From NCBI GenBank assembly GCA_958295735.1, contig OY282369.1, positions 2,270,983 to 2,334,982 on the forward strand: a DNA stretch of 64,000 nt. Direction: 5' to 3'. This DNA comes from an uncultured Candidatus Cenarchaeum sp. (GTDB lineage: Archaea > Thermoproteota > Nitrososphaeria > Nitrososphaerales > Nitrosopumilaceae). Made by a program: the position numbers and the translations under genes. Positions 9,900-53,400 of this stretch are shown one piece after another (within the stretch, counting starts at the first letter, position 1; every line of letters begins with the position of its first letter). The notes below the pieces were generated by a model. It did not search any database. It was not told where the DNA came from and was given only the letters and a program-made list of their open reading frames with translations.

Positions 9900-9917
9900 T
9901 TTTTCGGCGCGTGGCGT

Positions 9918-10009: not shown

Positions 10010-10017
10010 CGTGGCGT

Positions 10018-10804: not shown

Positions 10805-11200
10805 TTACCTCCTCTCCTCCGCCTTCACCGACCACTTCTGGCGGCCGAACCTGGCCGCCTCGAACTCGACGTGCCCTATCACCTTCCCGCCCCTCTTAAC
10901 CATCCCGTACTCGGACCTCCTCACCCGGATCACCCTCTCGGCAGGCTTGTAGCCCCCCTCGATCACCCTCGCCTTGAACCTCTTGCTGGCCCTCGTGGTC
11001 AGGCTCCTCGCGCTGCCCGCGTCGCCCACCCACGAGAACATCTCGAACGAGCCGAAGTTCTCCGTCCTCAGCTCGTGGCCGTACAGCCTGGCCTCGAACT
11101 TGTAGCCGCGCCGCCTCGCCTGCTCGTTCATCCAGCCCACGACCTCCTCGCCCCGCCCGGCCTCCACGCCGAAGGACTCCGAGTCCCTCATGCCGCCCAT
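10805..11200 (-). CDS. Hypothetical protein, 131 aa
   Basis: Basic, soluble, with balanced composition (MRDSESFGVEAGRGEEVVGW, then RRRGYKFEARLYGHELRTEN, ending RQKWSVKAEERR), unlike the Pro/Ala/Arg-rich shadow frames around it. No family recognised; no membrane segment or signal. The start may be ATG 11200 or ATG 11191. Isolated from its neighbours and transcribed in the same direction as the large surface protein upstream of it. Confidence 0.6.
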   Translation of the reverse strand: MGGMRDSESFGVEAGRGEEVVGWMNEQARRRGYKFEARLYGHELRTENFGSFEMFSWVGDAGSARSLTTRASKRFKARVIEGGYKPAERVIRVRRSEYGMVKRGGKVIGHVEFEAARFGRQKWSVKAEERR

Positions 11201-11467
11201 CGCCGCCGGCGGGGGGCCGGCCGATCCTCATATTCCTTGCCCCGCGCGCGGGTCCGCCCGCCCCCGCGTTCTGGCGCGGAACGGCCGCGCCCGCGCTTTC
11301 GGGGCGGATCCTCCTGGCATCCTGCGGCATCTCGGCAAAACTGCTTTCGCGGGCGGGCGCGGGATGCGGGCCGGGATCGCCCCGACGGACCGCCGCGGTG
11401 GGGATGCGGGCCGGGATCGCGCTCCGTGATCGCCTCCGCGGGCTGGCCCGCGGGCCGCCGGGCCGGG
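11201..11467. other. Short gene-free spacer
   Basis: Contains a repeated GGGATGCGGGCCGGGATCGC motif near 11358 and 11400. Nothing else supported. Confidence 0.4.
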
Positions 11468-11896
11468 CTAGCAGTCCACATCGTACGTTATGGTCTGCGA
11501 TATGTATGCGGCATCGATCTCGGGCACTCCGGTCAGGTCCAGCCGGAAGTCGACGACCACGCTGCCGCCCGCCGGCGTCCCGCCCGGTATGGCGGTGTCC
11601 GCCGCCAGCGGCGCGAAGTCGGCCGGCCCGGGAGCGGCGCCGGCCGAGCCCACGGACATCTCCGTGAGCGAGAACGGCAGGGCGGCCCCCGGCGCGGGGC
11701 CTCCGCTCCCGTGCAGCGCCCAGTCCGAGGCGCCGACGAAGACCGCGGGCATCGGGGCGGTTCCCGTGTTCGTTATGGTCTGCCTCGCCGCCCCGCTCGT
11801 CCGTCCCGGGAACAGGGAGGGCAGGGCGAGGGACGACTTTTCCAGCGCCATCCCGCACGTGTCGATGCCGCGGAGCAGTTCCGGGGCCCGCTCTCA
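11468..11896 (-). pseudogene. C-terminal 140 residues of the giant lipoprotein, beyond an in-frame TGA
   Basis: Directly in frame with the gene ending at 11894. After TGA the frame reads ERAPELLRGIDTCGMALEKS and continues to TYDVDC. The paralogue ending at 56839 has the matching stretch EWERAPDLLRGLDACGIDLE without a stop; its Trp (TGG) corresponds to the TGA here. The domain contains TITNTGTAPMPAVFVGASDW and GGTPAGGSVVVDFRLDLTGV. So the last domain is lost to a single nonsense change, or is made by readthrough. Confidence 0.85.
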
Positions 11897-24687: not shown

Positions 24688-25932
24688 GATCCCGAAACCG
24701 TTTCGCATCCTGGCCGGCGGGCTGGCCCGCCGCGCGGCCGGAGCGGAAGTGGAGGCGCGTGGGGGTCCCGAGCGCTCCCCGTGGCGAAAACGTTGCGGTG
24801 ACACGGCGAAGGAGGTACGCAGTGGTGGCGAAGCTGGATCCCGCCAAGGTGAAGTGGATGGCGGGCGGGACGGGGAAGGGGGCCCGGAGCGCCGGGATCG
24901 CGGCCCGGATGGGGGTCCCGCCGCGCCGCGCGCGGCAGATCCGCGCCCGGTACCGCGGGACGGGGGAGGTGCCCGCGCCGGGCGTGCGGGGCAGGACGAG
25001 GAAGGAGATCCAGGACCGCGCCAGGATCCCGGCGGAGGCGTTCCTCCAGCGCGGGACGGGCGCGTCCAGGCCGGGGCGGATCGTGGCGGTCACGGCGAGG
25101 ATCCGCATGCCCCACAACACCATACACCGCGTGCTGAAGGAGAAGTGGATGGCGGCAGGGCACCCGAAGAAGAGCAGGAGGCGCGAGCGGATCGGGTACG
25201 AGAGGACGCACTCCAACTCCCCGTGGCACGCCGACTACGAGCTGCTCCCCGGCGGGAGGTGGTTCATGGCGTGCCAGGACGACGCATCCAGGTTCATCGC
25301 GGGCTACGGCGCGTTCGACGAGGACGCGGGGAAGCGCGCCCTGGAGGTGCTCGAGAAGGCCACGGCCGAGCACGGCAGGCCCGCCACTATGATGGCCGAC
25401 CGCGGGTCCCAGTTCTACGCCAGCGAGTCCGAGGCCAGGAAGCGCGGCAGGGCGGAGTCCGGGAAGAGGCTGGACGAGCTGGGCGTGAGGCACATCCTGG
25501 CGTGGGCGGGGCATCCCCGGACCGACGGCAGGACGGAGGGGTCCCGCGGCGGGATCCGGAGGAAGATCGAGCGGTTCAGCGGGATAGGCGAGTTCGTCCG
25601 GCGGCACGACCGCGACAGGCCCCGCGGCTCCCCGGACCAGAGCGCGCCGTGGACGCCCGCCAGGGCGTTCGCGCGGAAGATGCCCGAAAAGGGGCAAACA
25701 GTCAAAGACGAGCACGCCTGGTAGGAGTATCTTGCTGGCTAGGATGCGAAACGATTTCGGGATCGCACACGACGGCGACAGGCCCCACGACTCCCCGGAC
25801 CAGAGCGCGCCGTGGACGCCCGCCAGGGCGTTCGCGCGGAAGATGCCCGAAAAGGGGCAAACAGTCAAAGACGAGCACGCCTGGTAGGAGTATCTTGCTG
25901 GCTAGGATGCGAAACGATTTCGGGATCGCACA
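24688..25932 (+). mobile_element. IS481-like insertion sequence with duplicated 3' end
   Basis: Left end GATCCCGAAACCGTTTCGCA (24688-24715 in full) is an inverted repeat, 26 of 28 bases, of the right end at 25737-25764. A second right end at 25899-25926 follows because the terminal 162 bp are duplicated in tandem. A related isolated end (GATCCCGAAACCATTCCGCG) lies at about 24610, hinting at an older insertion. Confidence 0.8.
24822..25724 (+). CDS. IS481-like transposase (rve integrase core)
   Basis: 300 aa. The start GTG 24822 is fixed by a strong Shine-Dalgarno GGAGG at 24811-24815, unusual in this leaderless-rich window. Helix-turn-helix region (SAGIAARMGVPPRRARQIRA), then the DDE core: WHADYELLPGGRWFMACQDD, MMADRGSQFYASESEARKRG, and HPRTDGRTEGSRGGIRRKIE with the third acidic residue. 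Appears intact. The last 37 residues are repeated in the downstream tandem copy. Confidence 0.85.
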   Translation: MVAKLDPAKVKWMAGGTGKGARSAGIAARMGVPPRRARQIRARYRGTGEVPAPGVRGRTRKEIQDRARIPAEAFLQRGTGASRPGRIVAVTARIRMPHNTIHRVLKEKWMAAGHPKKSRRRERIGYERTHSNSPWHADYELLPGGRWFMACQDDASRFIAGYGAFDEDAGKRALEVLEKATAEHGRPATMMADRGSQFYASESEARKRGRAESGKRLDELGVRHILAWAGHPRTDGRTEGSRGGIRRKIERFSGIGEFVRRHDRDRPRGSPDQSAPWTPARAFARKMPEKGQTVKDEHAW

Positions 25933-25937
25933 TAGAC
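25776..25937 (+). repeat. 162-bp tandem duplication of the IS481-like 3' end
   Basis: Repeats 25614-25775 nearly perfectly (CGACAGGCCCC to GGGATCGCAC), including the last transposase codons and the right inverted repeat; a few substitutions (GCGGCTCC to ACGACTCC). Confidence 0.85.
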
Positions 25938-25983
25938 TAACCCAAACACCAAAAATTAAATGCGGGCAAGATCTACACCGCGC

Positions 25984-26496
25984 ATGGAACAGGCAACAGG
26001 ATCGTCCAAGTATGGGGCGCAGCACATCGAAGAGGTGGGCGGGGCGCAGCACATCGAAGAGGTGGGCGGGGCGCAGCACATCGAAGAGGTGGACCGGGTG
26101 AGCCGGGAGCAGTACGCCGAAGAGATGAGGCGGGAGTACAGGGAGCAGTACGCCGAAGAGATGAGGCGGGAGTACAGGGAGCAGTACGCCGAAGAGATGA
26201 GGCGGGAGTACAGGGAGCAGTACGCCGAAGAGATGAGGCGGGAGTACGGGGAGCAGTACGCCGAAGAGATGAGGCGGGAGTACGGGGAGCAGTACGCCGA
26301 AGAGATGAGGCGGGAGTACGGGGAGCAGTACATGGAAGAGATGAGGCGGGAGTGCAGGGCGCAGTACATCAAAGAGATGAACCGGAAGGACAGGAGGTCG
26401 ATCTTGGATGACAAAGATGAGATGTGGGACTATGCCCGTAAGTCCCGCCAGGAATATGCCGATACTTGGGAATTCGTACTGGTTGAGGACGACTAG
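25984..26496 (+). CDS. Coiled-coil repeat protein, copy 1
   Basis: 170 aa from ATG 25984. The in-frame ATG 25960 lies inside the TATA-like AAAAATTAAATG, which is about 24-30 nt before 25984, so the shorter leaderless form is preferred. Sequence: three 9-residue AQHIEEVGG units, then 12-residue EQYAEEMRREYR units, then a constant tail (KDRRSILDDKDEMWDYARKS, ending FVLVEDD). Strongly charged, predicted long helix or coiled coil. Family unknown. Three tandem copies differ in repeat number, suggesting a length-variable structural or binding protein. Confidence 0.65.
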   Translation: MEQATGSSKYGAQHIEEVGGAQHIEEVGGAQHIEEVDRVSREQYAEEMRREYREQYAEEMRREYREQYAEEMRREYREQYAEEMRREYGEQYAEEMRREYGEQYAEEMRREYGEQYMEEMRRECRAQYIKEMNRKDRRSILDDKDEMWDYARKSRQEYADTWEFVLVEDD

Positions 26497-26570
26497 CCGC
26501 CTCCCCCTCCCCCGATTGTTTGTGGCGGAATCCGGTCCGCCAACCCGCCATTTCCTTCCAGTGTTGCCGG

Positions 26571-26659
26571 CGTGGACTCGTCCAAACCGAAACCACGCCT
26601 AGCAACGGCAAGCCACCTCATGATCTCACGCCCAGATCACGATGGGCGTAAGTCTACAC
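26571..26659. mobile_element. 92-bp-family palindromic element, left end degraded
   Basis: Left end reads CGTGGACTCGTCCAAACCG instead of GTGTAGACTTACGTCCAAAC; the right end GGGCGTAAGTCTACAC is intact. No target duplication seen. Confidence 0.8.
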
Positions 26660-26681
26660 GGAAGACTGTTGCAAAGACTTT

Positions 26682-26921
26682 TTGACGGCGCTATACGTCT
26701 CGGACCTGACCGCCGCGGAAAAGGCGGCCAGCATGGAGGCGTGGAAGGCGGCCAGCAGGTACGGCCGGCGCTGGACGGTCGAGATCGTCTTTTCGGCCGT
26801 CAAGCGCCTGTTCGGGAGCGGCGTGCGCGCCCTGAAGTGGAAGAACATAGTCCAGGAGGTCGGCCTCAAGGTGGCCCTCTACAACAGGCTGGTCGGCATG
26901 GCCTCGGGGGGGATCGGATAG
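26682..26921 (+). pseudogene. IS5-type transposase C-terminal fragment
   Basis: Encodes ASRYGRRWTVEIVFSAVKRL, then FGSGVRALKWKNIVQEVGLK and ALYNRLVGMAS, the end of an IS5-family DDE transposase with the third catalytic Glu (VEIVFS). No N-terminal two thirds. Carried within duplication unit 1. Confidence 0.75.
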
Positions 26922-27046
26922 GGGGACTCGGGGGGAGGAAGGGGGAAGGGAGGGGGGAGGAGCGGAGCCCCGGCGCCGTCCGGGATAGTTATGAGATAGA
27001 CTACCCAAATGCCAAAAATTAAATGCGGGCAAGATCTACACCGCGC

Positions 27047-27487
27047 ATGGAACCGGCAACAGGATCGTCCAAGTATGGGGCGCAGCACATCGAAGAGGTG
27101 GGCGGGGCGCAGCACATCGAAGAGGTGGGCGGGGCGCAGCACATCGAAGAGGTGGACCGGGTGAGCCGGGAGCAGTACGCCGAAGAGATGAGGCGGGAGT
27201 ACAGGGAGCAGTACGCCGAAGAGATGAGGCGGGAGTACAGGGAGCAGTACGCCGAAGAGATGAGGCGGGAGTACGGGGAGCAGTACGCCGAAGAGATGAG
27301 GCGGGAGTACGGGGAGCAGTACATGGAAGAGATGAGGCGGGAGTGCAGGGCGCAGTACATCAAAGAGATGAACCGGAAGGACAGGAGGTCGATCTTGGAT
27401 GACAAAGATGAGATGTGGGACTATGCCCGTAAGTCCCGCCAGGAATATGCCGATACTTGGGAATTCGTACTGGTTGAGGACGACTAG
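27047..27487 (+). CDS. Coiled-coil repeat protein, copy 2
   Basis: 146 aa, same layout as copy 1 with three 9-residue units and two fewer 12-residue units. The constant N-terminus (MEPATGSSKYG) and C-terminal 45 residues are identical or nearly so. Leaderless start at ATG 27047 inferred from CCAAAAATTAAATG upstream. Confidence 0.65.
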   Translation: MEPATGSSKYGAQHIEEVGGAQHIEEVGGAQHIEEVDRVSREQYAEEMRREYREQYAEEMRREYREQYAEEMRREYGEQYAEEMRREYGEQYMEEMRRECRAQYIKEMNRKDRRSILDDKDEMWDYARKSRQEYADTWEFVLVEDD

Positions 27488-27561
27488 CCGCCTCCCCCTC
27501 CCCCGATTGTTTGTGGCGGAATCCGGTCCGCCAACCCGCCATTTCCTTCCAGTGTTGCCGG

Positions 27562-27650
27562 CGTGGACTCGTCCAAACCGAAACCACGCCTAGCAACGGC
27601 AAGCCACCTCATGATCTCACGCCCAGATCACGATGGGCGTAAGTCTACAC
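27562..27650. mobile_element. 92-bp-family palindromic element within duplication unit 2
   Basis: Identical to the 26571-26659 copy; spread by the segmental duplication, not by independent insertion. Confidence 0.8.
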
Positions 27651-27672
27651 GGAAGACTGTTGCAAAGACTTT

Positions 27673-27912
27673 TTGACGGCGCTATACGTCTCGGACCTGA
27701 CCGCCGCGGAAAAGGCGGCCAGCATGGAGGCGTGGAAGGCGGCCAGCAGGTACGGCCGGCGCCGGGCGGTCGAGATCGTCTTTTCGGCCGTCAAGCGCCT
27801 GTTCGGGAGCGGCGTGCGCGCCCTGAAGTGGAAGAACATAGTCCAGGAGGTCGGCCTCAAGGTGGCCCTCTACAACAGGCTGGTCGGCATGGCCTCGGGG
27901 GGGATCGGATAG
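27673..27912 (+). pseudogene. IS5-type transposase C-terminal fragment, second copy
   Basis: As the fragment at 26682, with RRAVEIVF in place of RRWTVEIVF. Part of duplication unit 2. Confidence 0.75.
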
Positions 27913-28037
27913 GGGGACTCGGGGGGAGGAAGGGGGAAGGGAGGGGGGAGGAGCGGAGCCCCGGCGCCGTCCGGGATAGTTATGAGATAGACTACCCAAA
28001 TGCCAAAAATTAAATGCGGGCAAGATCTACACCGCGC

Positions 28038-28460
28038 ATGGAACCGGCAACAGGATCGTCCAAGTATGGGGCGCAGCACATCGAAGAGGTGGGCGGGGCG
28101 CAGCACATCGAAGAGGTGGGCGGGGCGCAGCACATCGAAGAGGTGGGCGGGGCGCAGCACATCGAAGAGGTGGGCGGGGCGCAGCACATCGAAGAGGTGG
28201 ACCGGGTGGGCAGGGAGCAGTACATCAAAGAGATGAGGCGGGAGTACAGGGAGCAGTACGCCGAAGAGATGAGGAGGGAGTCTAGGGCGGAGCACATGGA
28301 AGAGATGAGGCGGGAGTGCAGGGAGCAGTACATCAAAGAGATGAACCGGAAGGACAGGAGGTCGATCTTGGATGACAAAGATGAGATGTGGGACTATGCC
28401 CGTAAGTCCCGCCAGGAATATGCCGATACTTGGGAATTCGTACTGGTTGAGGACGACTAG
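28038..28460 (+). CDS. Coiled-coil repeat protein, copy 3
   Basis: 140 aa. Five 9-residue AQHIEEVGG units (against three in the other copies) and a more diverged 12-residue block (REQYIKEMRREYREQYAEEM, then RAEHMEEMRRECREQYIKEM), followed by the same constant tail. Start ATG 28038 by the same TATA argument. Divergence inside the repeats with constant ends shows unequal exchange. Confidence 0.65.
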   Translation: MEPATGSSKYGAQHIEEVGGAQHIEEVGGAQHIEEVGGAQHIEEVGGAQHIEEVDRVGREQYIKEMRREYREQYAEEMRRESRAEHMEEMRRECREQYIKEMNRKDRRSILDDKDEMWDYARKSRQEYADTWEFVLVEDD

Positions 28461-28534: not shown

Positions 28535-28623
28535 CGTGGACTCGTCCAAACCGAAACCACGCCTAGCAACGGCGAACCGCCCCCCGATCTCGCGCCTGGA
28601 TCGCGGCGGACGCGAGTCTGCCG
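28535..28623. mobile_element. 92-bp-family palindromic element, both ends degraded
   Basis: CGTGGACTCGTCCAAACCG at the left; the right end has decayed to GGACGCGAGTCTGCCG. Lies immediately upstream of the HEPN-like/TPR gene promoter. Confidence 0.7.
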
Positions 28624-28638
28624 TTGCCGACTACGAAC

Positions 28639-28650
28639 AGATAAATAACA
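28639..28650 (+). promoter_or_regulatory. TATA box for HEPN-like/TPR gene
   Basis: AGATAAATAACA, 24-35 nt upstream of ATG 28674, the basis for choosing that start over upstream in-frame codons that lie inside the palindromic element. Confidence 0.6.
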
Positions 28651-28673
28651 ACGGGCCGTACGGCCGGTACGGC

Positions 28674-30734
28674 ATGAGGATAAAATTCGGGCGCGTCACA
28701 GATGCGGCACGCAGGCAGGACATCGGTTCGACATTCAGGAAATTCGGATGGATCATGTCAAAGCTGAAACGCGCCGACGACGACACGGAGGACCATTGCA
28801 CCGTAAAACTGGTCACGGTGCTCGAGCAGTTCCTGAGGTACGCCGTTGAAACGATGATCGACACGGGAAAAATACCCCCCGGCAAACTCGTGGGAGGCGA
28901 ACGGCCTGGTCCTGAGAAGCTTGGCAAGGCCTCGCTGGGGCGGTACGTCGCTTTTTCCATGAATTTTCAGAACGTCAATGCCATAAGAAACATCCTGGAC
29001 GAGATCTGCATGCCGCGCGCGTTCGACTGCTGCCTGCGCGAGCCATACCGGGCAACACTCAGGGCTATGTACGCCCACAGGCACGAAATGGTCCACACGT
29101 CCGCGGAACTGCCGCCGGCCGAAATCGACCGGTGTTTTGGAGCCGCCCTGACATTCATGGACTGCACCATGCTTGAGATCCACTCCAGCCGCTACCCATT
29201 CTGCCTGCACATGGGGAACGGCCTGTTCCATTCGCGCGAGTATCTGGAGGCGATCAAGTACTACGACAAGTCGCTCGCCGCGCGGCGGGACGATCCCTAC
29301 GCGCTTGCCAGAAAGGGCGAGTCGCTCGCGAAGCTGGGGCGGCACGGGGAGGCGGTGGAGTGCTTCGACCGTGCACTGGATCGGGACGACTCCGCGCTTG
29401 CCAGAAAGGGCGAGTCGCTCGCGGAACTGGGGCGGCACGGGGAGGCGGTGGAGTGCTTCGACCGGGCCCTGGCACTGGATCCGGACGGCCCGTACGCGCT
29501 TGCCAGAAAGGGCGAGTCGCTCGCGGGACTGGGGCGGCACGGGGAGGCGGTGGAGTGCTTCGACCGGGCCCTGGCACTGGATCCGGACGGCCCGTACGCG
29601 CTTGCCAGAAAGGGGGAGTCGCTCGCGCGGATGGACAAACACGGGGAGGCTGTGGGGTGCTTCGACCGGGCCCTGGCCCGGAATCCCATCAACTCCCGCG
29701 CGCATGTCCTTAAGGGGACGTCGCTCGAGAAGCTGGGGCGGCACGAGGAGGCAGTCGCGCGCTTCGACCGGGCCCTGGCCATGAATCCGGGCGACTCCCG
29801 CGCGCATGCCATGCAAGGAGAACTGCTCGCGAAGCTGGGGCGGCACGAGGAGGCGGTCTTGCACTACGGCAGGCGGCTGGACACCGTTCCGGGCGACTCC
29901 CGCGCGCATGTCCTTAAAGTGACGTCGCTTGCGGAGCTGGGACAATTCAGAGAGGCGGTAACATGCTTCGACCGGGCCTTGGAACTGGATCCGGGCGACT
30001 CCCGCGCGCATGCCATGCAAGGAGAATCGCTCGCGGGACTGGGGCGGCACGGGGAGGCGGTGGAGTGCTTCGACCTGGCCCTGGCCCTGGATCCGGGCGA
30101 CTCCCGCGCGCATGCCATGAAGGGGGAGTCGCTCGCGGGACTGGGGCGGCACGGGGAGGCGGTGGAGTGCTTTGACCGGGCCCTGGCCCTGGATCCGGGC
30201 GACTCCCGCGCGCATGCCATGAAGGGGGAGTCGCTCGCGGGACTGGGGCGGCACGGGGAGGCGGTGGAGTGCTTCGACCGGGCCCTGGCCTCGGATCCCG
30301 ACTACTCCCGCGCGCATGCCATGAAGGGGGAGTCGCTCGCGGGACTGGGGCGGCACGGGGAGGCGGTGGAGTGCTTCGACCGGGCCCTGGCCTCGGATCC
30401 CGACTACTCCCGCGCGCATGCCATGAAGGGGGAGTCGCTCGCGGGACTGGGGCGGCACGGGGAGGCGGTGGAGTGCTTCGACCGGGCCCTGGCCTCGGAT
30501 CCCGACTACTCCCGCGCGCATGCCATGAAGGGGGAGTCGCTCGCGGGACTGGGGCGGCACGGGGAGGCGGTGGAGTGCTTCGACCGGGCCCTGGAAACTG
30601 GATCCGAGCGACTCCCGCGCGCATGCCATGAAGGGGGAGTCGCTCGCGGAGCTGGGGCGGCACGGGGAGGCGGTCTCGCACTACGACCGGGCCCTGGCCT
30701 GGAATCCCATCAACTCCCGCGCGCATGTCCTTAA
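28674..30734 (+). CDS. HEPN-like N-terminal domain plus TPR repeats, frameshifted
   Basis: The N-terminal ~180 residues are helical (MRIKFGRVTDAARRQDIGST, then VKLVTVLEQFLRYAVETMID) and contain YAHRHEMVH, a possible HEPN-type Rx4H ribonuclease motif. About 17 34-residue TPR units follow (GESLAGLGRHGEAVECFDRA then LALDPGDSRAHAMK). Many TPR units are identical at DNA level. Near 30596 GGAAACTGGATCC carries one A more than the parallel GGAACTGGATCC at 29979, throwing the frame into a non-TPR tail that stops at 30734; without it the protein would be 766 aa ending at 30975. A paralogue runs off the window at 64000. Could be a toxin-like RNase with a protein-binding scaffold, or just a scaffold. 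Confidence 0.75.
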   Translation: MRIKFGRVTDAARRQDIGSTFRKFGWIMSKLKRADDDTEDHCTVKLVTVLEQFLRYAVETMIDTGKIPPGKLVGGERPGPEKLGKASLGRYVAFSMNFQNVNAIRNILDEICMPRAFDCCLREPYRATLRAMYAHRHEMVHTSAELPPAEIDRCFGAALTFMDCTMLEIHSSRYPFCLHMGNGLFHSREYLEAIKYYDKSLAARRDDPYALARKGESLAKLGRHGEAVECFDRALDRDDSALARKGESLAELGRHGEAVECFDRALALDPDGPYALARKGESLAGLGRHGEAVECFDRALALDPDGPYALARKGESLARMDKHGEAVGCFDRALARNPINSRAHVLKGTSLEKLGRHEEAVARFDRALAMNPGDSRAHAMQGELLAKLGRHEEAVLHYGRRLDTVPGDSRAHVLKVTSLAELGQFREAVTCFDRALELDPGDSRAHAMQGESLAGLGRHGEAVECFDLALALDPGDSRAHAMKGESLAGLGRHGEAVECFDRALALDPGDSRAHAMKGESLAGLGRHGEAVECFDRALASDPDYSRAHAMKGESLAGLGRHGEAVECFDRALASDPDYSRAHAMKGESLAGLGRHGEAVECFDRALASDPDYSRAHAMKGESLAGLGRHGEAVECFDRALETGSERLPRACHEGGVARGAGAARGGGLALRPGPGLESHQLPRACP

Positions 30735-30975
30735 AGGGACGTCGCTCGCGGAGCTGGGGCGGCACGGGGAGGCGGTGGAGTGCTTCGACCTGGCCCTGGC
30801 CACGGATCCGGGCGACTCCCGCGCGCATGCCATGAAGGGCGAGTCGCTCGCGGAGCTGGGGCGGCACGGGGAGGCGGTGGAGTGCTTCGACCGGGCCCTG
30901 GCCCTGGATCCGGGCGACTCCCGCGCGCATGCCATGAAGGGAAAATCGCTCGCGGAGCTGGGGCGGCACGGGTAA
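30598..30975 (+). pseudogene. TPR C-terminal part after the +1 frameshift
   Basis: Continues the TPR units in the next frame (KGESLAELGRHGEAVSHYDR to KGKSLAELGRHG, stop TAA at 30975). After the stop, 30976-31080 in another frame reads RYGRASTADPNNHSAVAGRS, then PTAIPGALMP, which resembles the sequence after the paralogue's stop at 62134, so an older frameshift seems to have removed a further C-terminal piece in both. Confidence 0.7.
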
Positions 30976-31259
30976 GGCGGTAGGGCGATACGGCAGGGCA
31001 TCGACCGCCGATCCCAACAACCATTCCGCCGTCGCGGGGAGATCCGAGCCGACTGCGATCCCGGGCGCGCTGATGCCGTAGCGCGCGCGTTAAAGGGACA
31101 CGCCGTCTGGCGGTTTTTGGCCCGCACGCACAGCGGATGCCGGTTTTATGCGCGGCCGCGGCAAACCGGGCCGCCGCGCGCGGGGCGGATGGGGCCTTGC
31201 CGAATGCGCGGCGCGGGGCATTGCACGTCGACGGAATGCCGTGCCTGCCCTGCCGGGCG

Positions 31260-32440: not shown

Positions 32441-32707
32441 GTGGACGGCTACCCGCTGGCCGCCGGCGCCGGCGGCATAAAGGTCAGGCCCGAGCTGATG
32501 GAGGTAGAAAAGCTCTACCACTGCGTGTTCCGCGGCAGGGTCATGCTGGTGTACAAGGACGGCCAGCAGGTGCTCCACTGCTACGAGGTGGAGGGGGACG
32601 GGGGCCTGGCGGACAGGGTGGGGCGGTGCCGTAGCGCCGACGAGGCGGAGAGGATCCTCATGGAGCACGCGGAGGCCGCGGGCGGGCGGAAGTTAATAGA
32701 TAAATAA
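32441..32707 (+). CDS. Small hypothetical protein, 88 aa
   Basis: GTG 32441 is 21-30 nt after GTTGTTAACG. Soluble alpha/beta sequence: GGIKVRPELMEVEKLYHCVF, RGRVMLVYKDGQQVLHCYEV, then RSADEAERILMEHAEAAGGR. Two strands with a Cys each and a C-terminal helix; no family recognised. The alba promoter box overlaps its last codons, so the two genes are closely spaced. Confidence 0.72.
   Translation: MDGYPLAAGAGGIKVRPELMEVEKLYHCVFRGRVMLVYKDGQQVLHCYEVEGDGGLADRVGRCRSADEAERILMEHAEAAGGRKLIDK
32694..32706 (+). promoter_or_regulatory. TATA box for alba, inside the upstream gene's 3' end
   Basis: AATAGATAAATAA; its centre is about 28 nt before ATG 32730. It shares bases with the last codons and stop of the preceding gene. 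Confidence 0.6.
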
Positions 32708-32729
32708 AAGTTCATTGCGAGCCGATACG

Positions 32730-34841
32730 ATGTCAGAGGGTAGGAAGGCCACGGATGCGGAGGAGGTCCTCTCGGAGTTCAACAGGGCCCAGGGCTTGGC
32801 AAGCGAGCGCCGGCCGGCTGAGGGCGCCGGGGAGGCCCACGGCGACGGCTCTTGCTGCTCCGAGTCCCACGCCCCCGCCGAACAGGCCGCCCCCGCCCAC
32901 GGCGACGGCTCTTGTTGCTCCGAGTCCCGCGACCTGGAGGCCCCCGCCCCCGAACAGGCCGCCCCCGCCCACGGCGACGGCTCTTGCTGCTCCGAGTCCC
33001 ACGCCCCCGCCGAACAGGCCGCCCCCGCCCACGGCGACGGCTCTTGCTGCTCCGAGTCCCGCGACCTGGAGGCTCCCGCCCCCGCCGAACAGGCCGCCCC
33101 CGCCCACGGCGACGGCTCTTGCTGCTCCGAGTCCCGCGACCTGGAGGCTCCCGCCCCCGCCGAACAGGCCGCCCCCGCCCACGGCGACGGCTCTTGTTGC
33201 TCCGAGTCCCACGCCCCCGCCGAACAGGCCGCCCCCGCCCACGGCGACGGCTCTTGTTGCTCCGAGTCCCGCGACCTGGAGGCCCCCGCCCCCGAACAGG
33301 CCGCCCCCGCCCACGGCGACGGCTCTTGCTGCTCCGAGTCCCGCGACCTGGAGGCCCCCGCCCCCGAACAGGCCGCCCCCGCCCACGGCGACGGCTCTTG
33401 TTGCTCCGAGTCCCGCGACCTGGAGGCCCCCGCCCCCGAACAGGCCGCCCCCGCCCACGGCGACGGCTCTTGCTGCTCCGAGTCCCGCGACCTGGAGGCT
33501 CCCGCCCCCGCCGAACAGGCCGCCCCCGCCCACGGCGACGGCTCTTGTTGCTCCGAGTCCCGCGACCTGGAGGCCCCCGCCCCCGAACAGGCCGCCCCCG
33601 CCCACGGCGACGGCTCTTGCTGCTCCGAGTCCCGCGACCTGGAGGCCCCCGCCCCCGAACAGGCCGCCCCCGCCCACGGCGACGGCTCTTGCTGCTCCGA
33701 GTCCCGCGACCTGGAGGCTCCCGCCCCCGCCGAACAGGCCGCCCCCGCCCACGGCGACGGCTCTTGCTGCTCCGAGTCCCGCGACCTGGAGGCCCCCGCC
33801 CCCGAACAGGCCGCCCCCGCCCACGGCGACGGCTCTTGCTGCTCCGAGACCCACGCCCCCGCCGAACAGGCCGCCCCCGCCCACGGCGACGGCTCTTGCT
33901 GCTCCGAGTCCCGCGACCTGGAGGCCCCCGCCCCCGAACAGGCCGCCCCCGCCCACGGCGACGGCTCTTGCTGCTCCGAGACCCACGCCCCCGCCGAACA
34001 GGCCGCCCCCGCCCACGGCGACGGCTCTTGCTGCTCCGAGTCCCGCGACCTGGAGGCTCCCGCCCCCGAACAGGCCGCCCCCGCCCACGGCGACGGCTCT
34101 TGCTGCTCCGAGTCCCGCGACCTGGAGGCTCCCGCCCCCGAACAGGCCGCCCCCGCCCACGGCGACGGCTCTTGCTGCTCCGAGTCCCGCGACCTGGAGG
34201 CTCCCGCCCCCGAACAGGCCGCCCCCGCCCACGGCGACGGCTCTTGCTGCTCCGAGTCCCGAGACCTGGAGGCTCCCGCCCCCGAACAGGCCGCCCACGG
34301 CGACGGCTCTTGTTGCTCCGACACGCAGACCGTTGCGGTTGCCCCCGAGCCCGCCCCTGCACCGGAACCAGCGCCATATTCCGAGCCGGCCCCCGCGGAA
34401 CCCGCCCCCGAGCCGGCCCCCGCGGAACCCGCCCCCGAGCCGGCCCCCGCGGAACCCGCCCCCGAGCCGGCCCCCGCGGAACCCGCCCCCGAGCCGGCCC
34501 CCGCGGAACCCGCCCCCGCGGGGGAGGGCGAGGCGGCCGGCGACGAGCCGCCGGCCCCCGCCCCCTCGCGCGAGAGGAACGTGATATTCGTCGGGCAAAA
34601 GCCCATCATGGTGTACGTGACGGCCACGCTCACCCAGCTCGCCACGCAGCCCGTGGTGACCATAAAGGCGCGCGGAAAGCGCATAACGCAGGCGGTGGAC
34701 GTCTCGCAGATGATAGTAAAGAGGATGAACACCGTCGGCTACACCATAAGCGACGTCCGGATCGCCTCGGACTCCCTCATGTCCGAGGACGGGAAGGAGC
34801 GCAAGGTGTCCACCATCGAAATAGACATCAAGAGCAGCTAG
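32730..34841 (+). CDS. alba: Alba-domain protein with ~22 Cys-Cys repeats
   Basis: 703 aa from ATG 32730 (TTG 32715 also in frame). The C-terminal ~95 residues are a complete Alba domain: RNVIFVGQKPIMVYVTATLT, TIKARGKRITQAVDVSQMIV, ending STIEIDIKSS. Alba binds DNA and RNA in archaeal chromatin and is normally about 90-110 aa. Residues ~35-530 here are about 22 units of HGDGSCCSES(RDLEAPAP)EQAAPA, followed by a Pro-Glu-Ala spacer of EPAPAEPAP units. Each unit has an adjacent Cys pair flanked by His and acidic residues, suitable for metal or redox chemistry (inference). The N-terminus MSEGRKATDAEEVLSEFNRA looks ordinary. Possibly a metal-storing or crosslinkable chromatin protein. Confidence 0.88.
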   Translation: MSEGRKATDAEEVLSEFNRAQGLASERRPAEGAGEAHGDGSCCSESHAPAEQAAPAHGDGSCCSESRDLEAPAPEQAAPAHGDGSCCSESHAPAEQAAPAHGDGSCCSESRDLEAPAPAEQAAPAHGDGSCCSESRDLEAPAPAEQAAPAHGDGSCCSESHAPAEQAAPAHGDGSCCSESRDLEAPAPEQAAPAHGDGSCCSESRDLEAPAPEQAAPAHGDGSCCSESRDLEAPAPEQAAPAHGDGSCCSESRDLEAPAPAEQAAPAHGDGSCCSESRDLEAPAPEQAAPAHGDGSCCSESRDLEAPAPEQAAPAHGDGSCCSESRDLEAPAPAEQAAPAHGDGSCCSESRDLEAPAPEQAAPAHGDGSCCSETHAPAEQAAPAHGDGSCCSESRDLEAPAPEQAAPAHGDGSCCSETHAPAEQAAPAHGDGSCCSESRDLEAPAPEQAAPAHGDGSCCSESRDLEAPAPEQAAPAHGDGSCCSESRDLEAPAPEQAAPAHGDGSCCSESRDLEAPAPEQAAHGDGSCCSDTQTVAVAPEPAPAPEPAPYSEPAPAEPAPEPAPAEPAPEPAPAEPAPEPAPAEPAPEPAPAEPAPAGEGEAAGDEPPAPAPSRERNVIFVGQKPIMVYVTATLTQLATQPVVTIKARGKRITQAVDVSQMIVKRMNTVGYTISDVRIASDSLMSEDGKERKVSTIEIDIKSS
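32840..34330. repeat. Cys-Cys repeat array in alba
   Basis: Units of 60, 72 or 75 bp built from CACGGCGACGGCTCTTGCTG and GAACAGGCCGCCCCCGCC, in long and short versions (with or without RDLEAP). All six frames are open across the array, but only the frame continuous with the Alba domain is credible. Confidence 0.9.
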
Positions 34842-35119: not shown

Positions 35120-36088
35120 TCAGGCCGGCGGCCCGGCCCGCCCCGCCGCCCCGCCGAGCCTGGAGAGCAGCGCGGCGTACAGGAACGGCAGCACGGCGGT
35201 GGCCTCGGCGTGGAGGGTGGCCTGCCTCGCGCCGCGGGCCACCTTCCCCCACGAGACGGCCTCCCTGACCGGCGCGCCGCTGAGGCTGCCGTCGAACTCC
35301 TGCGCCGTGGTCACGTACAGGGCGTAGTCCAGCCCCTTGCGGTACTGGTTCCACCACAGCGTGTGGTGCTTTGATATGCCGCCGCCGATCATCAGGGCGC
35401 CGGACCTCTCCGCCTTGAACACGAGCCCGGACAGCAGCTCGGCGTCGGCCATGACGTCCAGCGCAAAGTCGGGCCTCTTTTGGGCGAACATCCACAGCTG
35501 GCTGCCCACCGCCCCGTCCATTATGCCCGGCACGACGACCGGTATGCCGTTCCCGGCGGCCTCGCGCAGGAACGAGCCCCTGCCGAGGCGCCGCCCTATC
35601 ATGCCCGCGACGTCGGCGGTGGACATGCGCCGCCTCCCCGCGGCGTACTCCTCCTCCAGGTACTCCTGCATCCTGCCCTCGATGAGCGGCCCGTAGCCGG
35701 AGGCGGGGACCAGGACGCTCCCCAGCCGGTGGGAGCCCCCGTCGGCCACCTCCGCGTCGTCCATCTCGAACGAGCCCCCCGTATAGTCGGCGTGCGACCT
35801 GGCCACGTCGTGGTCGAGGGCGCCGCAGGTGGTCACGGCGACGTCGAACATGCGGCGCCGCATCATGTCCGATATGATCCCCCGCAGCCCCGTGGACACG
35901 ACTGCTCCCACGAACGAGACGAACCGCAGGCAGGCCGCATCCGAGGCCATCTCCTGCAGTATGTCCAGCCCGTCGGCCATGTTCCTGGCCTCGAAGCCGC
36001 CGGACCGGGCCATCTGGGATATTATCCTGTCCGCGCCCGCCTCGGCGCCCACCTCCACGTCCCTGACGGGGCCTCCGGGCCGTGCCAT
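35120..36088 (-). CDS. dys: Deoxyhypusine synthase
   Basis: 322 aa from ATG 36088; a longer frame to 36157 would overlap both its own TATA box and the ino1 promoter. Family features: VSFVGAVVSTGLRGIISDMM, DVAVTTCGALDHDVARSHAD, GIPVVVPGIMDGAVGSQLWM and the active-site loop GGGISKHHT with the catalytic Lys at about 240. It transfers the aminobutyl group of spermidine, via NAD, to the Lys of aIF5A, a step essential in archaea. Stop is 2 nt from the convergent small secreted gene. Confidence 0.94.
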   Translation of the reverse strand: MARPGGPVRDVEVGAEAGADRIISQMARSGGFEARNMADGLDILQEMASDAACLRFVSFVGAVVSTGLRGIISDMMRRRMFDVAVTTCGALDHDVARSHADYTGGSFEMDDAEVADGGSHRLGSVLVPASGYGPLIEGRMQEYLEEEYAAGRRRMSTADVAGMIGRRLGRGSFLREAAGNGIPVVVPGIMDGAVGSQLWMFAQKRPDFALDVMADAELLSGLVFKAERSGALMIGGGISKHHTLWWNQYRKGLDYALYVTTAQEFDGSLSGAPVREAVSWGKVARGARQATLHAEATAVLPFLYAALLSRLGGAAGRAGPPA

Positions 36089-36110
36089 CCGCTGCCGGGC
36101 CGCCCGGCGG

Positions 36111-36119
36111 CTATAAAAC
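36111..36119 (-). promoter_or_regulatory. TATA box for deoxyhypusine synthase gene
   Basis: Minus-strand GTTTTATAG, 23-31 nt upstream of ATG 36088; decides the start. Confidence 0.6.
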
Positions 36120-36141
36120 CCTCGCGGGGGCCCCGGACAGT

Positions 36142-36153
36142 TAGGTTTAAACT
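36142..36153 (+). promoter_or_regulatory. TATA box for ino1
   Basis: TAGGTTTAAACT, 21-32 nt before GTG 36174. Confidence 0.6.
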
Positions 36154-36173
36154 TCATTCAAGACGGGCGCCCG

Positions 36174-37307
36174 GTGTTGGCGGGAAGCGGGAGGATCAGG
36201 GTGGGCCTGGTAGGGCTCGGCAACTGCTTTTCCGGCCTCATCCAGGGCATAGAGTACTACCGGCAGAACCCGTCCCAAAAGGCCACCGGGATCATCCACG
36301 AGAGCCTGCGCGGGTACACCATGCACGACATTGACTTCGTGTGCGGCTTCGACGTGGGCGCGAACAAGGTGGGCAAGCCGATCAGCGAGGCCATATACGA
36401 GGAGCCGAACATGGTGGACTGGATCCCGCGCGGCAGCATGCCCGCGACGGGGGCCGTGGTGCGCGAGGGCCCCGCCCTGGACGGCGTGGGCGTGTGGGTG
36501 AAGGACCGCATAAGGCCCATACGGAGCGGCAAGACCGACGAGGAGCTGCGCGCGGAGGCCGGGCGCGCCCTGTCCGACTCGGGGGCCGAGGTGGTGGTCT
36601 CGTACCTGCCGGTGGGGTCGGAAAAGGCGACGCGGTTCTGGGCGGGGGCCTGCCTGGACGCGGGGGCCGCGTTCGTCAACTGCATACCCTCGTTCATAGC
36701 GTCCGACGAAAAGTGGGCGGCCAAGTTCGCCGAGAAGGGGCTGCCCGTCATCGGGGACGACATAAAGGGGCAGGTGGGGGCCACCATAGTGCACCGCACG
36801 CTGGCCCGCCTGTGCAGCGAGAGGGGCACCCGCATAGAAAGGACGTACCAGCTGAACGTGGGGGGGAACACGGACTTCCTGAACATGAAGGAGCAGGAGA
36901 GGCTGGTCAGCAAGAGGATCTCCAAGACCGAGAGCGTGCAGAGCCAGCTCGGCGAGCGGCTCGGGGACGACCAGATACACGTGGGCCCGTCCGACTACGT
37001 GCCGTTCTTGGGCAACAAAAAGCTGATGTTCATGAGGATAGAGGGGCGGCAGTGGGCCAACATACCGTACAACATGGACGTCAGGCTGGAGGTGGACGAC
37101 AAGGCCAACTCGGCGGGGATAGTCGTGGACGCCATACGGCTGGCCCGCATAGCGCTAGACGACGGCCTGGGAGGCCCCGTGCTGCCGGCCAGCGCGTACC
37201 TCATGAAGCACCCCATGCGGCAGATGCCCGACCACGAGGCCAAGCGGGCCTGCGAGGAGATGGTGCGGGGGAGCGGCGGCGGCGGCGGCCCCGCTCCTCC
37301 CGCCTGA
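36174..37307 (+). CDS. ino1: Myo-inositol-1-phosphate synthase
   Basis: 377 aa. NAD-binding VGLVGLGNCFSGLIQG at the N-terminus; family blocks SEVVVSYLPVGSEKATRF-like (here GAEVVVSYLPVGSEKATRFW), FVNCIPSFIASDEKWAAKFA, LPVIGDDIKGQVGATIVHR, and YQLNVGGNTDFLNMKEQERL, SKRISKTESVQSQLG. Converts glucose-6-phosphate to inositol-1-phosphate, the precursor of archaeal phosphatidylinositol lipids. GTG 36174 chosen by TATA distance and the short leader. The C-terminal GGGGGPAPPA is low-complexity, and the stop codon is the first TGA of a 14-bp repeat array. Confidence 0.95.
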   Translation: MLAGSGRIRVGLVGLGNCFSGLIQGIEYYRQNPSQKATGIIHESLRGYTMHDIDFVCGFDVGANKVGKPISEAIYEEPNMVDWIPRGSMPATGAVVREGPALDGVGVWVKDRIRPIRSGKTDEELRAEAGRALSDSGAEVVVSYLPVGSEKATRFWAGACLDAGAAFVNCIPSFIASDEKWAAKFAEKGLPVIGDDIKGQVGATIVHRTLARLCSERGTRIERTYQLNVGGNTDFLNMKEQERLVSKRISKTESVQSQLGERLGDDQIHVGPSDYVPFLGNKKLMFMRIEGRQWANIPYNMDVRLEVDDKANSAGIVVDAIRLARIALDDGLGGPVLPASAYLMKHPMRQMPDHEAKRACEEMVRGSGGGGGPAPPA

Positions 37308-37472
37308 GCCGCGCCGCCTGAGCCGCGCCGCCTGAGCCGCGCCGCCTGAGCCGCGCCGCCTGAGCCGCGCCGCCTGAGCCGCGCCGCCTGAGCCGCGCCG
37401 CCTGAGCCGCGCCGCCTGAGCCGCGCCGCCTGAGCCGCGCCGCCTGAGCCGCGCCGCCTGAGCCGCGCCGCC
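37305..37472. repeat. 14-bp tandem repeat, 12 perfect copies
   Basis: TGAGCCGCGCCGCC repeated exactly 12 times, beginning with the ino1 stop codon. Because 14 is not a multiple of 3, TGA appears in all three frames on the plus strand, a fail-safe stop block. Followed to 37640 by irregular C/G-rich sequence with no gene. Confidence 0.97.
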
Positions 37473-47437: not shown

Positions 47438-50400
47438 ATGAACTCTACTGTGTTCGACTCCGCCCGGAACTTCGTCGCCAGCCATGGCGGGTTCCTTACC
47501 CCGCGCGGCGTGGCCGTCGACGGCTCGGGCAGCGTGTACGTGGCCGATGGCGCCAACCAGACAGTCCGCGTGTTCGACTCCTCTTGGAATGAAACCGGCG
47601 CCATCACCAAAGAGACCGTATCCGCCGCGTTCTTCATTTCGAATTACGTGGCGGTCGACGCCGCCGGCAACGTGTACGTGACCGACTCCGGCTACCTGAA
47701 AGTCAGCGTCTTCCACCCCAACAGGACCCACGCCGCCGACCTCCCCGGCCCGTTCGCCGACCCGTGGGACGTGGCGGTCGACGCCGCCGGCAACGTGTAC
47801 GTGGCAGACAGGGGCGTCAACGACATCGTCCGGATCTTCCACCCCAACAGGACCCACGCCGCCGACCTGGGCCCGTTCGCCAATCCGTCCGGCGTCGCGG
47901 TCGACACCGCCGGCAACGTGTACGTGGCCGACTCGGGCATCTACAGCGGCAACATCATGGCCTTCGATTCCGCACGGAATTCCGCCGCCAACTTCAGCAT
48001 CCGCGACTCGACTTTGTTCGGTGCTCGGGACAGCGTCGCGGTCGACGCCGCCGGCAACGTGTACGCGACCGACGCCGGGCGCGACCTCGTCTATGTGCTG
48101 GATCAAGTGTACGCCTTTGACGTGGCGGATCCTGACAACGGGCAGCTCGAGGTGACCCTGCCCGCCGGCAGCGTGCGGGACGGGGCGGGAAACGGGAACG
48201 AGGAATCGAACGCGGCGGGCATCCGCGTAGGCATAGGGCCGACCCCGACCGTCACGGCCGCGCAGTCCAGCCCGACCAGCGCGGAGACGATCAACTTCCA
48301 GGTCGAATTCGGCAAGCCCGTCACCGGGTTCGGGGCAGGGAACGTGACTCTTTCGGGGACGGCCGCCCACGGCGGCGTGCAGAACTTCGCGGGCGCCAAC
48401 GCCTCGTACTCGTTCGACGTCTCGCCGACGTCCGACGGGACCATACGGGTCGACGTCGCCGCCGGCGTGGCGCTCGACGATGCCGGAAACTACAATGCCG
48501 CGGCGGCGCGGTTCACCATAACGCACGACGGCACGCCCCCCGCCCCGGCGATCGTGCCCGAGGCGCCGGGCCTCACCCGCCTGGAGGCCGTGCCGTTCAC
48601 CCTGAAGTTCGACGAGCCCGTGAACGCCACGACGCTCGACGCGTCCGACTTCAACGTCACCTCGGGCACGGTGGTGAACCTGCGCGGCCAGTGGGTGCAC
48701 AACGCGACCATCGGCGGCGCGGGCCCAGGCCAGTTGAACCAGCCACACGGCGTTGCAGTAGACAACTCCAACTCCTCGGGCACGATATACGTGGTCGACA
48801 GGAGCGACCGATTATTCGCATTCGACTCCGCCGGGAACTTCGTCGCCAGCCGTGCCGGGTTCAACTTTCCGCGCGACGTGGCGGTCGACGGCTCGGGCAA
48901 CGTGTACGTGCCCGACCCCGGCAACGACCGCGTCGCCGCATTAGACTCCGCTCTGAATGGCGCCGACAACATCGCCAACCACCCGACTGTTATCGGCCCG
49001 GCCAGCGTGGCGGCTGATGCCTCCTCGGGACTGATATACGTGGGCGACATCTCCTCCGACCGCGTCATGGCATTCCACCCCGACGGGACATTCGCCGGCG
49101 ACCTGCCGGACACATACGAACACGTTTCCGGCTCTGGCCCGTTCGACGACCCGGAAGGCATAGCGGTCGACGTCTCGGGCAACATATACGTGGCCAACGA
49201 AGGTAACGGCACCGTCCAGATCTTCGACTCCGACTGGACCCACGTCGCCGAACTACCCGGCCAGTTCAGCTCTCCGTCCGGCGTGGCGGTCGACTCCGCG
49301 GGCAACGCGTACGTGGCCGACAGGGGCACCGTCGGCAGCACCGGCAGCATCCTGGCCTTCGATCCCGCCGGGAATACCACCGCCGCGATCCTCACCGGGT
49401 TCACCGACCCTCAGGGCGTGGCGGTCGACGGCTCGGGCCGCGTGTACGTGGCCGCCACGGGCAACAACCGCGTCCACACGTACGATCGCGTGTACAAGTT
49501 CGACGTGGCGGGTCCGGCCGGCGGGCAGCTCGAGGTGACCCTGCCCGCCGGCAGCGTGCAGGACAGGGCGGGAAACGGCAACGCGGCATCCAACACGGCG
49601 AGCAACTACATAAGCGGCCCGACCCCGACCATCACGTCCACGCAGCCCAGCCCGGCCAGCGCGGAGACGATCAACTTCCAGGTCGAATTCGGCAAGCCCG
49701 TCACCGGGTTCAACGTGAGCGACATCGTCCTTTCGGGCAACGCCACCCACGGCGGCGTGGAAAACTTCGCGCCCGCCAGCGCCGAGTCGTACTCGTTCGA
49801 CGTCTCGCCGACATCTGACGGGACCATACTGGTCGACGTCCCAGCGGACGCGGCGCAGGATTTGGCCGGAAGAAACAGCACCGAGTCGGCGCGGTTCTCG
49901 ATGACGTACTACGTCCCCACGAGCACGACCGTCACGTCCACCCAGCCCAGCCCGACCGGCGCGGGGACGATCGACTTCCAGGTCGAATTCGGCGAGCCCG
50001 TCACCGGGTTCGCGCGCGAGGACGTCGTCATTTCGGGCAACGCCACCCACGGCGGCGTGGAAAACTTCACGGGCGGCGGCGACTCGTACTCGTTCGACGT
50101 CTCGCCGACATCTGACGGGACCATACTGGTCGACGTCCCCGCCGGCGCGGCGGGGACGCCGTACGGGCGCAGCAGCGCAGCGGCGCCGCGGTTCTCGATC
50201 ACGTACGACGGCCCCCCGACCCCGATCATCACGGCCACGCAGCCCAGCCCGACCGGCGAGTCGACGATCAGCTTCCGGGTCGAATTCGGCGAGCCCGTCA
50301 CCGGGTTCAACGGGAGCGACATCGTCCTTTCGGGCAACGCTGCACGCGGCGGCGTGGAAAACTTCGCGAACGCCAGCGCCGAGTCGTACTCGTTCGACGT

Positions 50401-53400
50401 CTCGCTCGCGACCGACGGGGCGCTGCTCGTCGACATACCCGCGGGCGCGGCGCAGGACGGCGGCGGAAACGGCAACCGCGCGGCGGAACGGTTCTCGATC
50501 GTACGCGAGAGCATCCCGGCCGCGACCATCAGCGCGACGCGGTCCGGCCTGACCAACGCGTCCACGATCAGCTTCCAGGTCGAATTCGGCGATCACGTCG
50601 ACGGGTTTGAAAAGGCGGACGTGGCCCTCTCGGGGACGGCCTCCCACGGCGGCGTGGAAAACTTCGCGGGCGGCGGCGCCTCGTACTCGTTCGACGTCAC
50701 GCTCGCGACCGACGGGGCGCTGCTCGTCGACATACCCGCGGGCGCGGCGCATGACGCCGACGGAAACGCCAACCTCGCGGCGGAACGGTTCTCGATCATA
50801 CGCGACGGCACGCCGCCGGCCCCGGAGTTCGCCGCGGCGCAGCCAGGCCCCACCAACCTCGCGGCGGTGCCCTTCGACCTGACCTTCAACGGGCGCATAA
50901 ACGGGGCCACGTTCGACGCCTCCGACATAGGGATTACCTCGGGCAACGTGGAGAACCTGACCGCCGCGTGGCTAGGCGACTCGACCATCGGCAGCCAGGG
51001 CACCGGCATCGGCCAGCTCAACGGCCCGACCGGCGTGGCGGTCGACTCCGCGGGCAACACGTACGTGGCCGACCCCTCCCTCCGCCGCGTATCCGTGTTC
51101 GACAAAGCGGGGCAGCACGCCGCCGACGTCGACTACGAGTTTTCCGGCCCGCGCGGCGTGGAAACGGGCGGCCCGTCCGGCCTCATATACGTGGCCGACA
51201 CGCTGGACAGCAGAGTCGTCATATTCGACGCGGAGCTGCGGAACGTGGCCAACATCACCTACTCGTTCGACAGGCCGCACGACGTGGCGGTGGACCCGGC
51301 CGGCCGCGTATACGTGGCCGACACGCACGAGAACCGCGTCAGCGTGTTCGACGCCATGGGGCAGCACGTCGGCGACATCACCGGCCTGTCAAGCCCGAAT
51401 GCCGTGGCGGCGGACCTCGCCGGCAACGTGTACGTGGCCGACACGAACAACCAACGCGTCGCGGTATTCAACTCCACGTGGCACCTAGTCGACGAGGTTT
51501 CCGGCGTCGGCAACCCGCGTGGCGTGGCGGTGGACTCGGCGGGCAACATATACGCGTCCGACCTCGCCGGCGGCGGACGCGTCAGGGTGTTCGACCCCGC
51601 CGGGAACCCCGCGGGCTACCTCCCCGGCCCGTTCGGCAGTCCGTACGGCGTGGCGGTCGACGGCTCGGACGCCGTGTACGTGGCCGACACGCACAACGAC
51701 TACATCGCGGTATTCGACGCGGGATACGAGTTCGTCGTGGCAAATCCGGACGAGGGGCGGCTCGACGTGAGCATGCAGGCCGGCCGCGTGCGGGACGCGG
51801 CCGGGAACGGCAACGCGGAATCGAACGCGGCGAGCATCAGAATAGACAGGACCGCCCCCGCCCCCAACGTGACGTCCGCGCAGCCCGACCCGACCGGCGC
51901 CGCCACGATAGCGTTCGGGGTGGACTTCGGCGAGCCCGTCGACGGGTTCGCGGCCGGCGACATCAGCATTTCGGGCAACGCCTCCCACGGCGGCGTGGAA
52001 AACTTCGCGCCCGCCAACGCTACGGCGTACGCGTTCGACGTCTCGCCCACGTCCGACGGGACCATACTGGTCGACATACCCGCAAACGCGACGGAGGACA
52101 AGGCAGGAAACGGCAACAAAGAGGCCGCGCAGTTCTCGATAACGTACGACAGCTCCATCCCGACCCCCATCATCACGTCCACGCAGCCCAGCCCGGCCAG
52201 CGCGGAGACGATCAACTTCCAGGTCACATTCAACGTGGACGTCACCGGGTTCGACGGGAGCGACATCGTCCTTTCGGGCAACGCCACCCACGGCGGCGTG
52301 GAAAACTTCGCTAACGCCAGCGCCGAGTCGTACGCGTTCGACGTCTCGCCGACATCTGACGGGACCATGCTGGTCGACGTCCCAGCGGACGCGGCGCAGG
52401 ATTTGGCCGGAAGAAACAGCACCGAGTCGGCGCGGTTCTCGATGACGTACTACGTCCCCACGAGCACGACCATCACGTCCACGCAGTCCAGCCCGGCCAG
52501 CGCGGAGGCGATCGACTTCCAGGTCGAATTCGGCGCGCCCGTCACCGGGTTCGACGGGATCGACATCGTCCTTTCGGGCAACGCCTCCCACAACGGCGTG
52601 GAAAACTTCGCGGGCGGCGGCGCCTCGTACTCGTTCGACGTCTCGCCCGTATCCGACGGGATCATACACGTCGACATCGCCGCGGGCGCGGCGCAGGCCA
52701 CGGCCGAACGCAGCAGCGCCGCGGCGGAGCGGTTCTCTATGACGTACTACGTCCCCACGAGCACGACCGTCTCGTCCACGCAGTCCAGCCCGGCCAGCGC
52801 GGAGGCGATCGACTTCCAGGTCGAATTCGGCGCGCCCGTCACCGGGTTCGACGGGATCGACATCGTCCTTTCGGGCAACGCCTCCCACAACGGCGTGGAA
52901 AACTTCGCGGGCGGCGGCGCCTCGTACTCGTTCGACGTCTCGCCCGTATCCGACGGGATCATACACGTCGACATCGCCGCGGGCGCGGCGCAGGCCACGG
53001 CCGAACGCAGCAGCGCCGCGGCGGAGCGGTTCTCTATGACGTACTACGTCCCCACGAGCACGACCGTCTCGTCCACGCAGTCCAGCCCGGCCAGCGCGGA
53101 GGCGATCGACTTCCAGGTCGAATTCGGCGAGGCCGTCACCGGGTTCGCGGCCGGCGACATCGTCCTCTCGGGAGAGGCCTCCCACAACGGCGTGGAAAAC
53201 TTCGCGGGCGGCGGCGCCTCGTACTCGTTCGACGTCTCGCCCGTATCCGACGGGACCATACACGTCGACATCGCCGCGGGCGCGGCGCAGGCCACGGCCG
53301 AACGCAGCAGCGCCGCGGCGGAGCGGTTCTCGATAACGAACTACGTCCCCACGAGCACGACCGTCACGTCCACGCAGTCCAGCCCGGCCAGCGCGGAGGC

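Follow-up and report, generated by a model that had tools for sequence, protein, structure and literature searches.

The closest described relatives of the protein reported here are the Alba proteins of the Sso10b family (PF01918; PDB 1h0x, 1nh9 and 1nfh), which have the same domain by sequence and, judged from a model of an orthologue, the same fold. Characterised Alba is about 97 residues long and has a pI of 10.4 (Hocher et al. 2022, PMC7613761, Table 1), whereas the present protein, Alba-1, has 703 residues, a predicted pI of 4.26, a conserved head and a tail with 44 cysteines. Its gene (32730..34841, plus strand; ORF with an ATG start, 70 kDa) lies in the stretch of DNA analysed here (the window, 64,000 nucleotides), which covers positions 2,270,983-2,334,982 of the single 3,166,131-base contig of a genome that is 96.8% complete. 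The relatives of this genome (G000) are the Nitrosopumilaceae, which are ammonia-oxidising archaea, and one other genome (G001) falls in its genus. For the tail, the nearest described systems are the metallothioneins and other Cys-rich metal-buffer repeats, with which it shares clustered CC/CxC thiols, few aromatic residues and acidic spacers. It differs from metallothioneins in that it has no profile homology to them, is fused to a chromatin protein and has 7.2% Cys, a lower share than that of the small classical metallothioneins.

The Alba domain is encoded at 34575..34838 (plus strand). Residues 617-678 match Pfam PF01918 with an E value of 4.5e-13 and a score of 49.2 bits, where the curated cut-off is 25, which makes the protein a member of the family, and the closest solved chain by sequence is 1nh9_A (E 3.6e-17). 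The AF2 model of an orthologue (L109), whose Alba domain is 87% identical to that of the window, shows a helix at residues 9-19 of the head; confidence is low over the tether, with a mean pLDDT of about 50, and high over the Alba fold, at about 95. In Foldseek the model matches 1h0x_A with a target TM of 0.91. Judged from this orthologue model, the beta-alpha-beta-alpha-beta-beta fold is predicted to be present in the window protein as well. In the window Alba, Gln takes the place of the first Lys in the IGKKP motif, an acetylation site in Sulfolobus. Binding of DNA or RNA is putative, and the domain on its own is basic (pI 9.9). The genome encodes two further Alba genes and one histone-fold gene. 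A second Alba (L002; G000:C1:1609704-1609889, minus strand) is of the GKKP type and carries a tail of QPQTEQP repeats at its C terminus; both paralogues have thus grown repeat tails, at opposite ends.

An Alba match is present in 246 of 250 Nitrosopumilaceae genomes. We gathered 147 distinct Alba-1 orthologues, of which 90 have a readable head and 88 are complete. Most begin with the head (consensus MSxxxKxTDAEEILSEF from 44 aligned orthologues), continue with a tether of tandem repeats (PEPEPTPEP, PEPEPQLESP and other units) that is acidic, rich in Pro and of varying length, and end with Alba; the complete sequences have a median length of 170 residues and a median pI of 4.75. With the orthologue model, this points to a family design in which a disordered, acidic tether joins a short helical head to the Alba domain; we found no description of this design in the open-access literature. 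The window protein follows the design, having the same head (DAEEVLSEF, within the DAEE(I/V)LSEF pattern), the same position of its acidic tether and the same domain. The usual tethers, however, are about 20-165 residues long and lack Cys, whereas that of the window has 607 residues and 44 Cys. The comparison with Cys-poor Alba of about 100 residues made in the first-pass annotation was thus incomplete: a head and a long acidic tether are normal for Nitrosopumilaceae Alba-1. The long tail is thus a trait of the family, of which the window protein is the extreme, and what is new here is its Cys content and its length. Among the frames listed, Alba frames in other families of the order reach at most 138 residues, and from frame length alone the long tether seems restricted to Nitrosopumilaceae. 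An Alba-1 86% identical to that of the window occurs in a record titled Gammaproteobacteria bacterium BBSC-SA02 (L024) and groups with Nitrosopumilaceae; this contig is probably mislabelled or contaminated.

The tether contains an array of 22 HGDGSCC(S/E/S) units (32838..34325, plus strand; residues 37-532), with units of 60, 66, 72 or 75 nt. These correspond to spacings of 20, 22, 24 or 25 codons, and all length differences are therefore multiples of three. Tandem Repeats Finder (TRF) independently reports a 72-bp array at 32878-34321 with 20.6 copies and a score of 2283. The counts of 22 HGDGSCC copies and 44 Cys bear out the earlier description of an Alba domain in frame with about 22 Cys-Cys repeats, and the array indeed takes up some 500 residues ahead of Alba. 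Each of the 44 Cys belongs to a CC pair and thus has a second Cys no more than two residues away, whereas in shuffled versions of this linker an average of 11 Cys are so placed. TGT is used for six of the 44 Cys codons and there are GCC/GCT variants too, so the copies are non-identical; within the HGDGSCCS core of the 22 units all six differences are synonymous (TGC/TGT). The tail is strongly charged, with 122 Asp/Glu against 22 Arg/Lys. Between the array and the Alba domain is a second, Cys-free tandem repeat, EPAPAEPAP (27 nt x 5.1; 34381..34518, plus strand), which resembles the usual family tethers. The HGDGSCC repeat is found nowhere else in its own genome, all 16 matches being this locus, in none of the 249 other Nitrosopumilaceae genomes, and on no plasmid or viral contig searched. 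A Pfam search with three tail types gave no family at E<=1, a PDB search with the Cys tails gave no match, and neither linked the tail repeats to a metal-protein family. No RNA families were found in the window.

An alternative is that translation begins at an internal GTG and yields just the Alba domain, or that the array was misassembled. The first in-frame start codon past 32796 is the GTG at 34581..34583 (plus strand), and it is preceded by GAGAGGAA, which is similar to a ribosome-binding site. However, this codon lies within the first Alba strand, and a product begun there would lack the first residues of strand 1. No in-frame ATG, GTG or TTG occurs between 32799 and 34580 in the ORF, and the N-terminal head (MSEGRKATDAEEVLSEFNRAQ, 21 residues; 32730..32792, plus strand) is conserved in the 44 aligned orthologues, which argues that translation begins at the head family-wide. 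A TATA-like promoter box, AAATAAAA, occurs once in the window on scanning both strands (32702..32709, plus strand), with its centre 24 nt upstream of the ATG at 32730, where an archaeal TATA box is expected if the transcript is leaderless. This spacing implies a leaderless or very short-leader Alba-1 transcript, and A/T-rich boxes also lie 5' of the ATG in the compared orthologues. A sigma-70 promoter scan of the window gave no match, the sigma-70 model being unsuited to archaea. The start at 32730 is thus well supported by these sequence features, and the internal start is rejected. An assembly or frame artefact is likewise unlikely since the array lies inside a single contig, its copies differ, their length steps are multiples of three and the frame stays open throughout. 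The two circumstances that the first-pass annotation had named as fatal to its reading, a downstream start giving Alba alone and an artefactual array, are therefore both unsupported, and we regard this alternative as very improbable.

The neighbourhood of the gene is partly conserved. Upstream lies a small conserved gene (VRPELM...YHC...HCYEVE; 32483..32707, plus strand) with no confident Pfam family, which takes the same place in L060, L063, L140 and L235; in L060 and L063 its frame continues into Alba-1 without a stop, which could reflect a fusion or chance. Downstream is a syntenic deoxyhypusine synthase gene (35120..36157, minus strand; Pfam PF01916). By sequence resemblance, an ORF similar to it adjoins Alba-1 in L234 and L235, and both the deoxyhypusine synthase and inositol-1-phosphate synthase neighbours appear to be kept in G128 (L235). 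A 14-bp repeat, CCGCCTGAGCCGCG, is present in 12.4 copies at 100% identity at 37300-37472, covering the 3' end of the inositol-1-phosphate synthase gene and the region beyond it.

Of particular interest is the recurrence of Cys in the tethers of other Alba-1 proteins. Among the 90 orthologues whose head is readable, 84 have a tether entirely free of Cys (0 in 6156 residues). The other six come from four lineages, and the motif differs in each: HGDGSCCSES x22 in the window, HSGGSCGCSHDE x13, GSCGCGGEAGSCDDK x1 and HTHGDDHTCADDSCACCDD x2. The tether of G019 (genus g7; L151/L236) has 13 SCGCSHDE units with an invariant core, 26 Cys and 38-39 His; G016 and G017 (genus g6) have GSCGCGGEAG-(S/T)C-(D/E)DK; and in genus g14 the tether of G132 has ECTCGSGD and HTHGDDHTCADDSCACCDD, and that of G128 has SECACG and DDSCGCC. 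The motifs are unlike between lineages, yet the Cys are nearly always CC or CxC beside His, Asp or Glu. Every Cys in the tethers of G000, G019 and G128, and eight of ten in G132, is within two residues of another Cys, and in these four clustering is well above shuffled means. The count of Cys in orthologous tethers thus forms a series of 0, 3, 5+, 10, 26 and 44, where 5 is a minimum owing to a sequence gap. The search for Alba fusions with CC repeats that had been proposed earlier thus returned Cys/His clusters in the same tether of at least three other lineages, although not the same unit. The array of G019 is the nearest counterpart of the window's, long, in the same tether and apparently independent, but it has CGC rather than CC, units of 18 or 33 residues, its many His and a genome region of 36% GC. 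Some 1 kb downstream of the G019 gene is an ORF (L236:9622-10899) which, judged by eye, resembles an Nramp-type divalent metal transporter.

In a tree of the Alba domain the Cys-bearing proteins do not form one clade, and the supported branches need at least three changes; the tree has 88 columns and little resolution, with bootstrap values that did not settle, and a single gain followed by losses is a possible alternative to separate gains on these sequences. Tethers without Cys are found in the same genus as the window (G001) and in g6 (G018), so that tether Cys are dispensable. Local GC exceeds 45% in five of the six Cys loci and in three of the 84 Cys-free loci (Fisher p 7e-6, kinship ignored). 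High GC has been reported for many sponge-associated Thaumarchaeota, though not for all (PMC7848895, PMC6697440), and the G016 sequence is that of a locus titled Thaumarchaeota archaeon S13, Ca. Cenporiarchaeum stylissum S13 being a sponge symbiont (PMC7848895). A link between tether Cys and host life is therefore possible.

The window itself has a local GC of about 70% (49-61% at 1-12000, possibly an acquired region) and is rich in tandem repeats, for example at 14604-16274, 25605-28358, 28536-30981, 49618-54220 and 62143-63693; many of the window repeats are coding (TPR-like and others). Tandem repeat makes up 23% of the window and 0-8% of the loci of eleven relatives, and this genome seems to expand repeats pervasively. 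The high copy number of HGDGSCC probably reflects this in part and needs no selection. Since the array copies were recently homogenised, their synonymous-only variation is likewise weak evidence for selection.

These observations also speak for neutral or near-neutral repeat growth, in which a chance Cys stretch was amplified in a tether that needs only length, acidity and disorder, the thiols being idle. The separate repeat tail of the Alba-2 paralogue, the diverse PEP-type repeats and variable length of other tethers, and the Cys-free tether of the same-genus G001 all fit such growth. It accounts poorly for Cys being absent from the 84 other tethers, which indicates that slippage here does not usually produce Cys, and for clusters of Cys, His and acidic residues built from unrelated units in four lineages; moreover, G128/G132 and G016/G017 combine a low repeat load (1-3%) with few Cys copies. 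Purely neutral growth is thus an unlikely explanation, though one to be taken seriously. A redox role, in which a vicinal CC dithiol-disulfide switch crosslinks Alba or senses oxidants on chromatin, would suit the strict pairing of the Cys in the window. The other lineages, however, have CGC, CTC and CACC with His clusters, a metal-ligand pattern and not a conserved redox motif, and no dedicated partner was seen near the Alba-1 locus, so that we consider this role improbable. Two further suggestions of the first-pass annotation, disulfide crosslinking of chromatin and sulfur storage, found no positive support. The tail could also be chiefly an electrostatic or entropic brush with incidental Cys, the acidic tether tuning DNA affinity and the head docking a partner. 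The head and acidic tether are family-wide, with the low median pI given above, and the L109 model has a helical head and a low-confidence tether; the recurrent clustered Cys/His would be left unexplained, and as the chief role of the tail it is decidedly doubtful. A brush and a metal buffer are compatible and can be true together.

The recurrence of Cys/His in the same tether is, among these sequences, the strongest evidence for function. Clustered CC/CxC with His, Asp and Glu that recur in different forms in related archaea suggest a metal-binding tail fixed to chromatin, and we put selection for soft-metal binding at about even odds. Metal binding, which had been listed among possible roles of the array, is accordingly kept as plausible. 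We infer that the tether of this lineage was turned into 22 clustered thiol/imidazole/carboxylate sites (HGDGSCCSES). The Alba domain would anchor the tail on chromatin, and each CC pair, aided by nearby His/Asp/Glu or by a second CC pair, would bind a soft metal ion, most likely Cu(I) or Zn(II) and possibly Cd(II). Alba-1 would then act as a chromatin-tethered metal buffer. Since the tail is so strongly acidic and sits on a basic Alba, metal loading would lower its charge; the neutralised tail would compact, which could alter DNA bridging by Alba-1. Genome-wide tandem-repeat expansion may have raised the copy number of a motif already useful at few copies; that is, the choice of motif was probably selected and its copy number inflated by repeat growth. 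Our overall explanation, Alba-1 with a Cys-array tether as a chromatin-tethered soft-metal buffer, has a probability of roughly 0.5.

The HMA (CopZ-type) domain is absent in 15 of 16 Nitrosopumilaceae genomes tested, that of the window included. With this usual cytosolic copper chaperone domain missing, there is room for a non-HMA cytosolic metal buffer. The lack of HMA was rejected as an explanation of the distribution of Cys tethers, because the domain is absent in Cys-bearing and Cys-free marine relatives alike.

More tentatively, the tether may have become, repeatedly and in several ammonia-oxidising archaeal lineages with mostly sponge-symbiont-like GC, a chromatin-anchored metal store and sensor through which nucleoid structure would be linked to metal status. 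No mention of thaumarchaeal Alba tails, or of metal- or thiol-bearing Alba, was found in the open-access literature. The orthologous tethers, with 0 to 44 Cys, constitute a natural series in which to study the gain of function by low-complexity tails. Should the Alba-1 tail prove to bind metal, a nucleoid-anchored metal buffer would be part of archaeal chromatin, in copper-dependent nitrifiers that mostly lack HMA.
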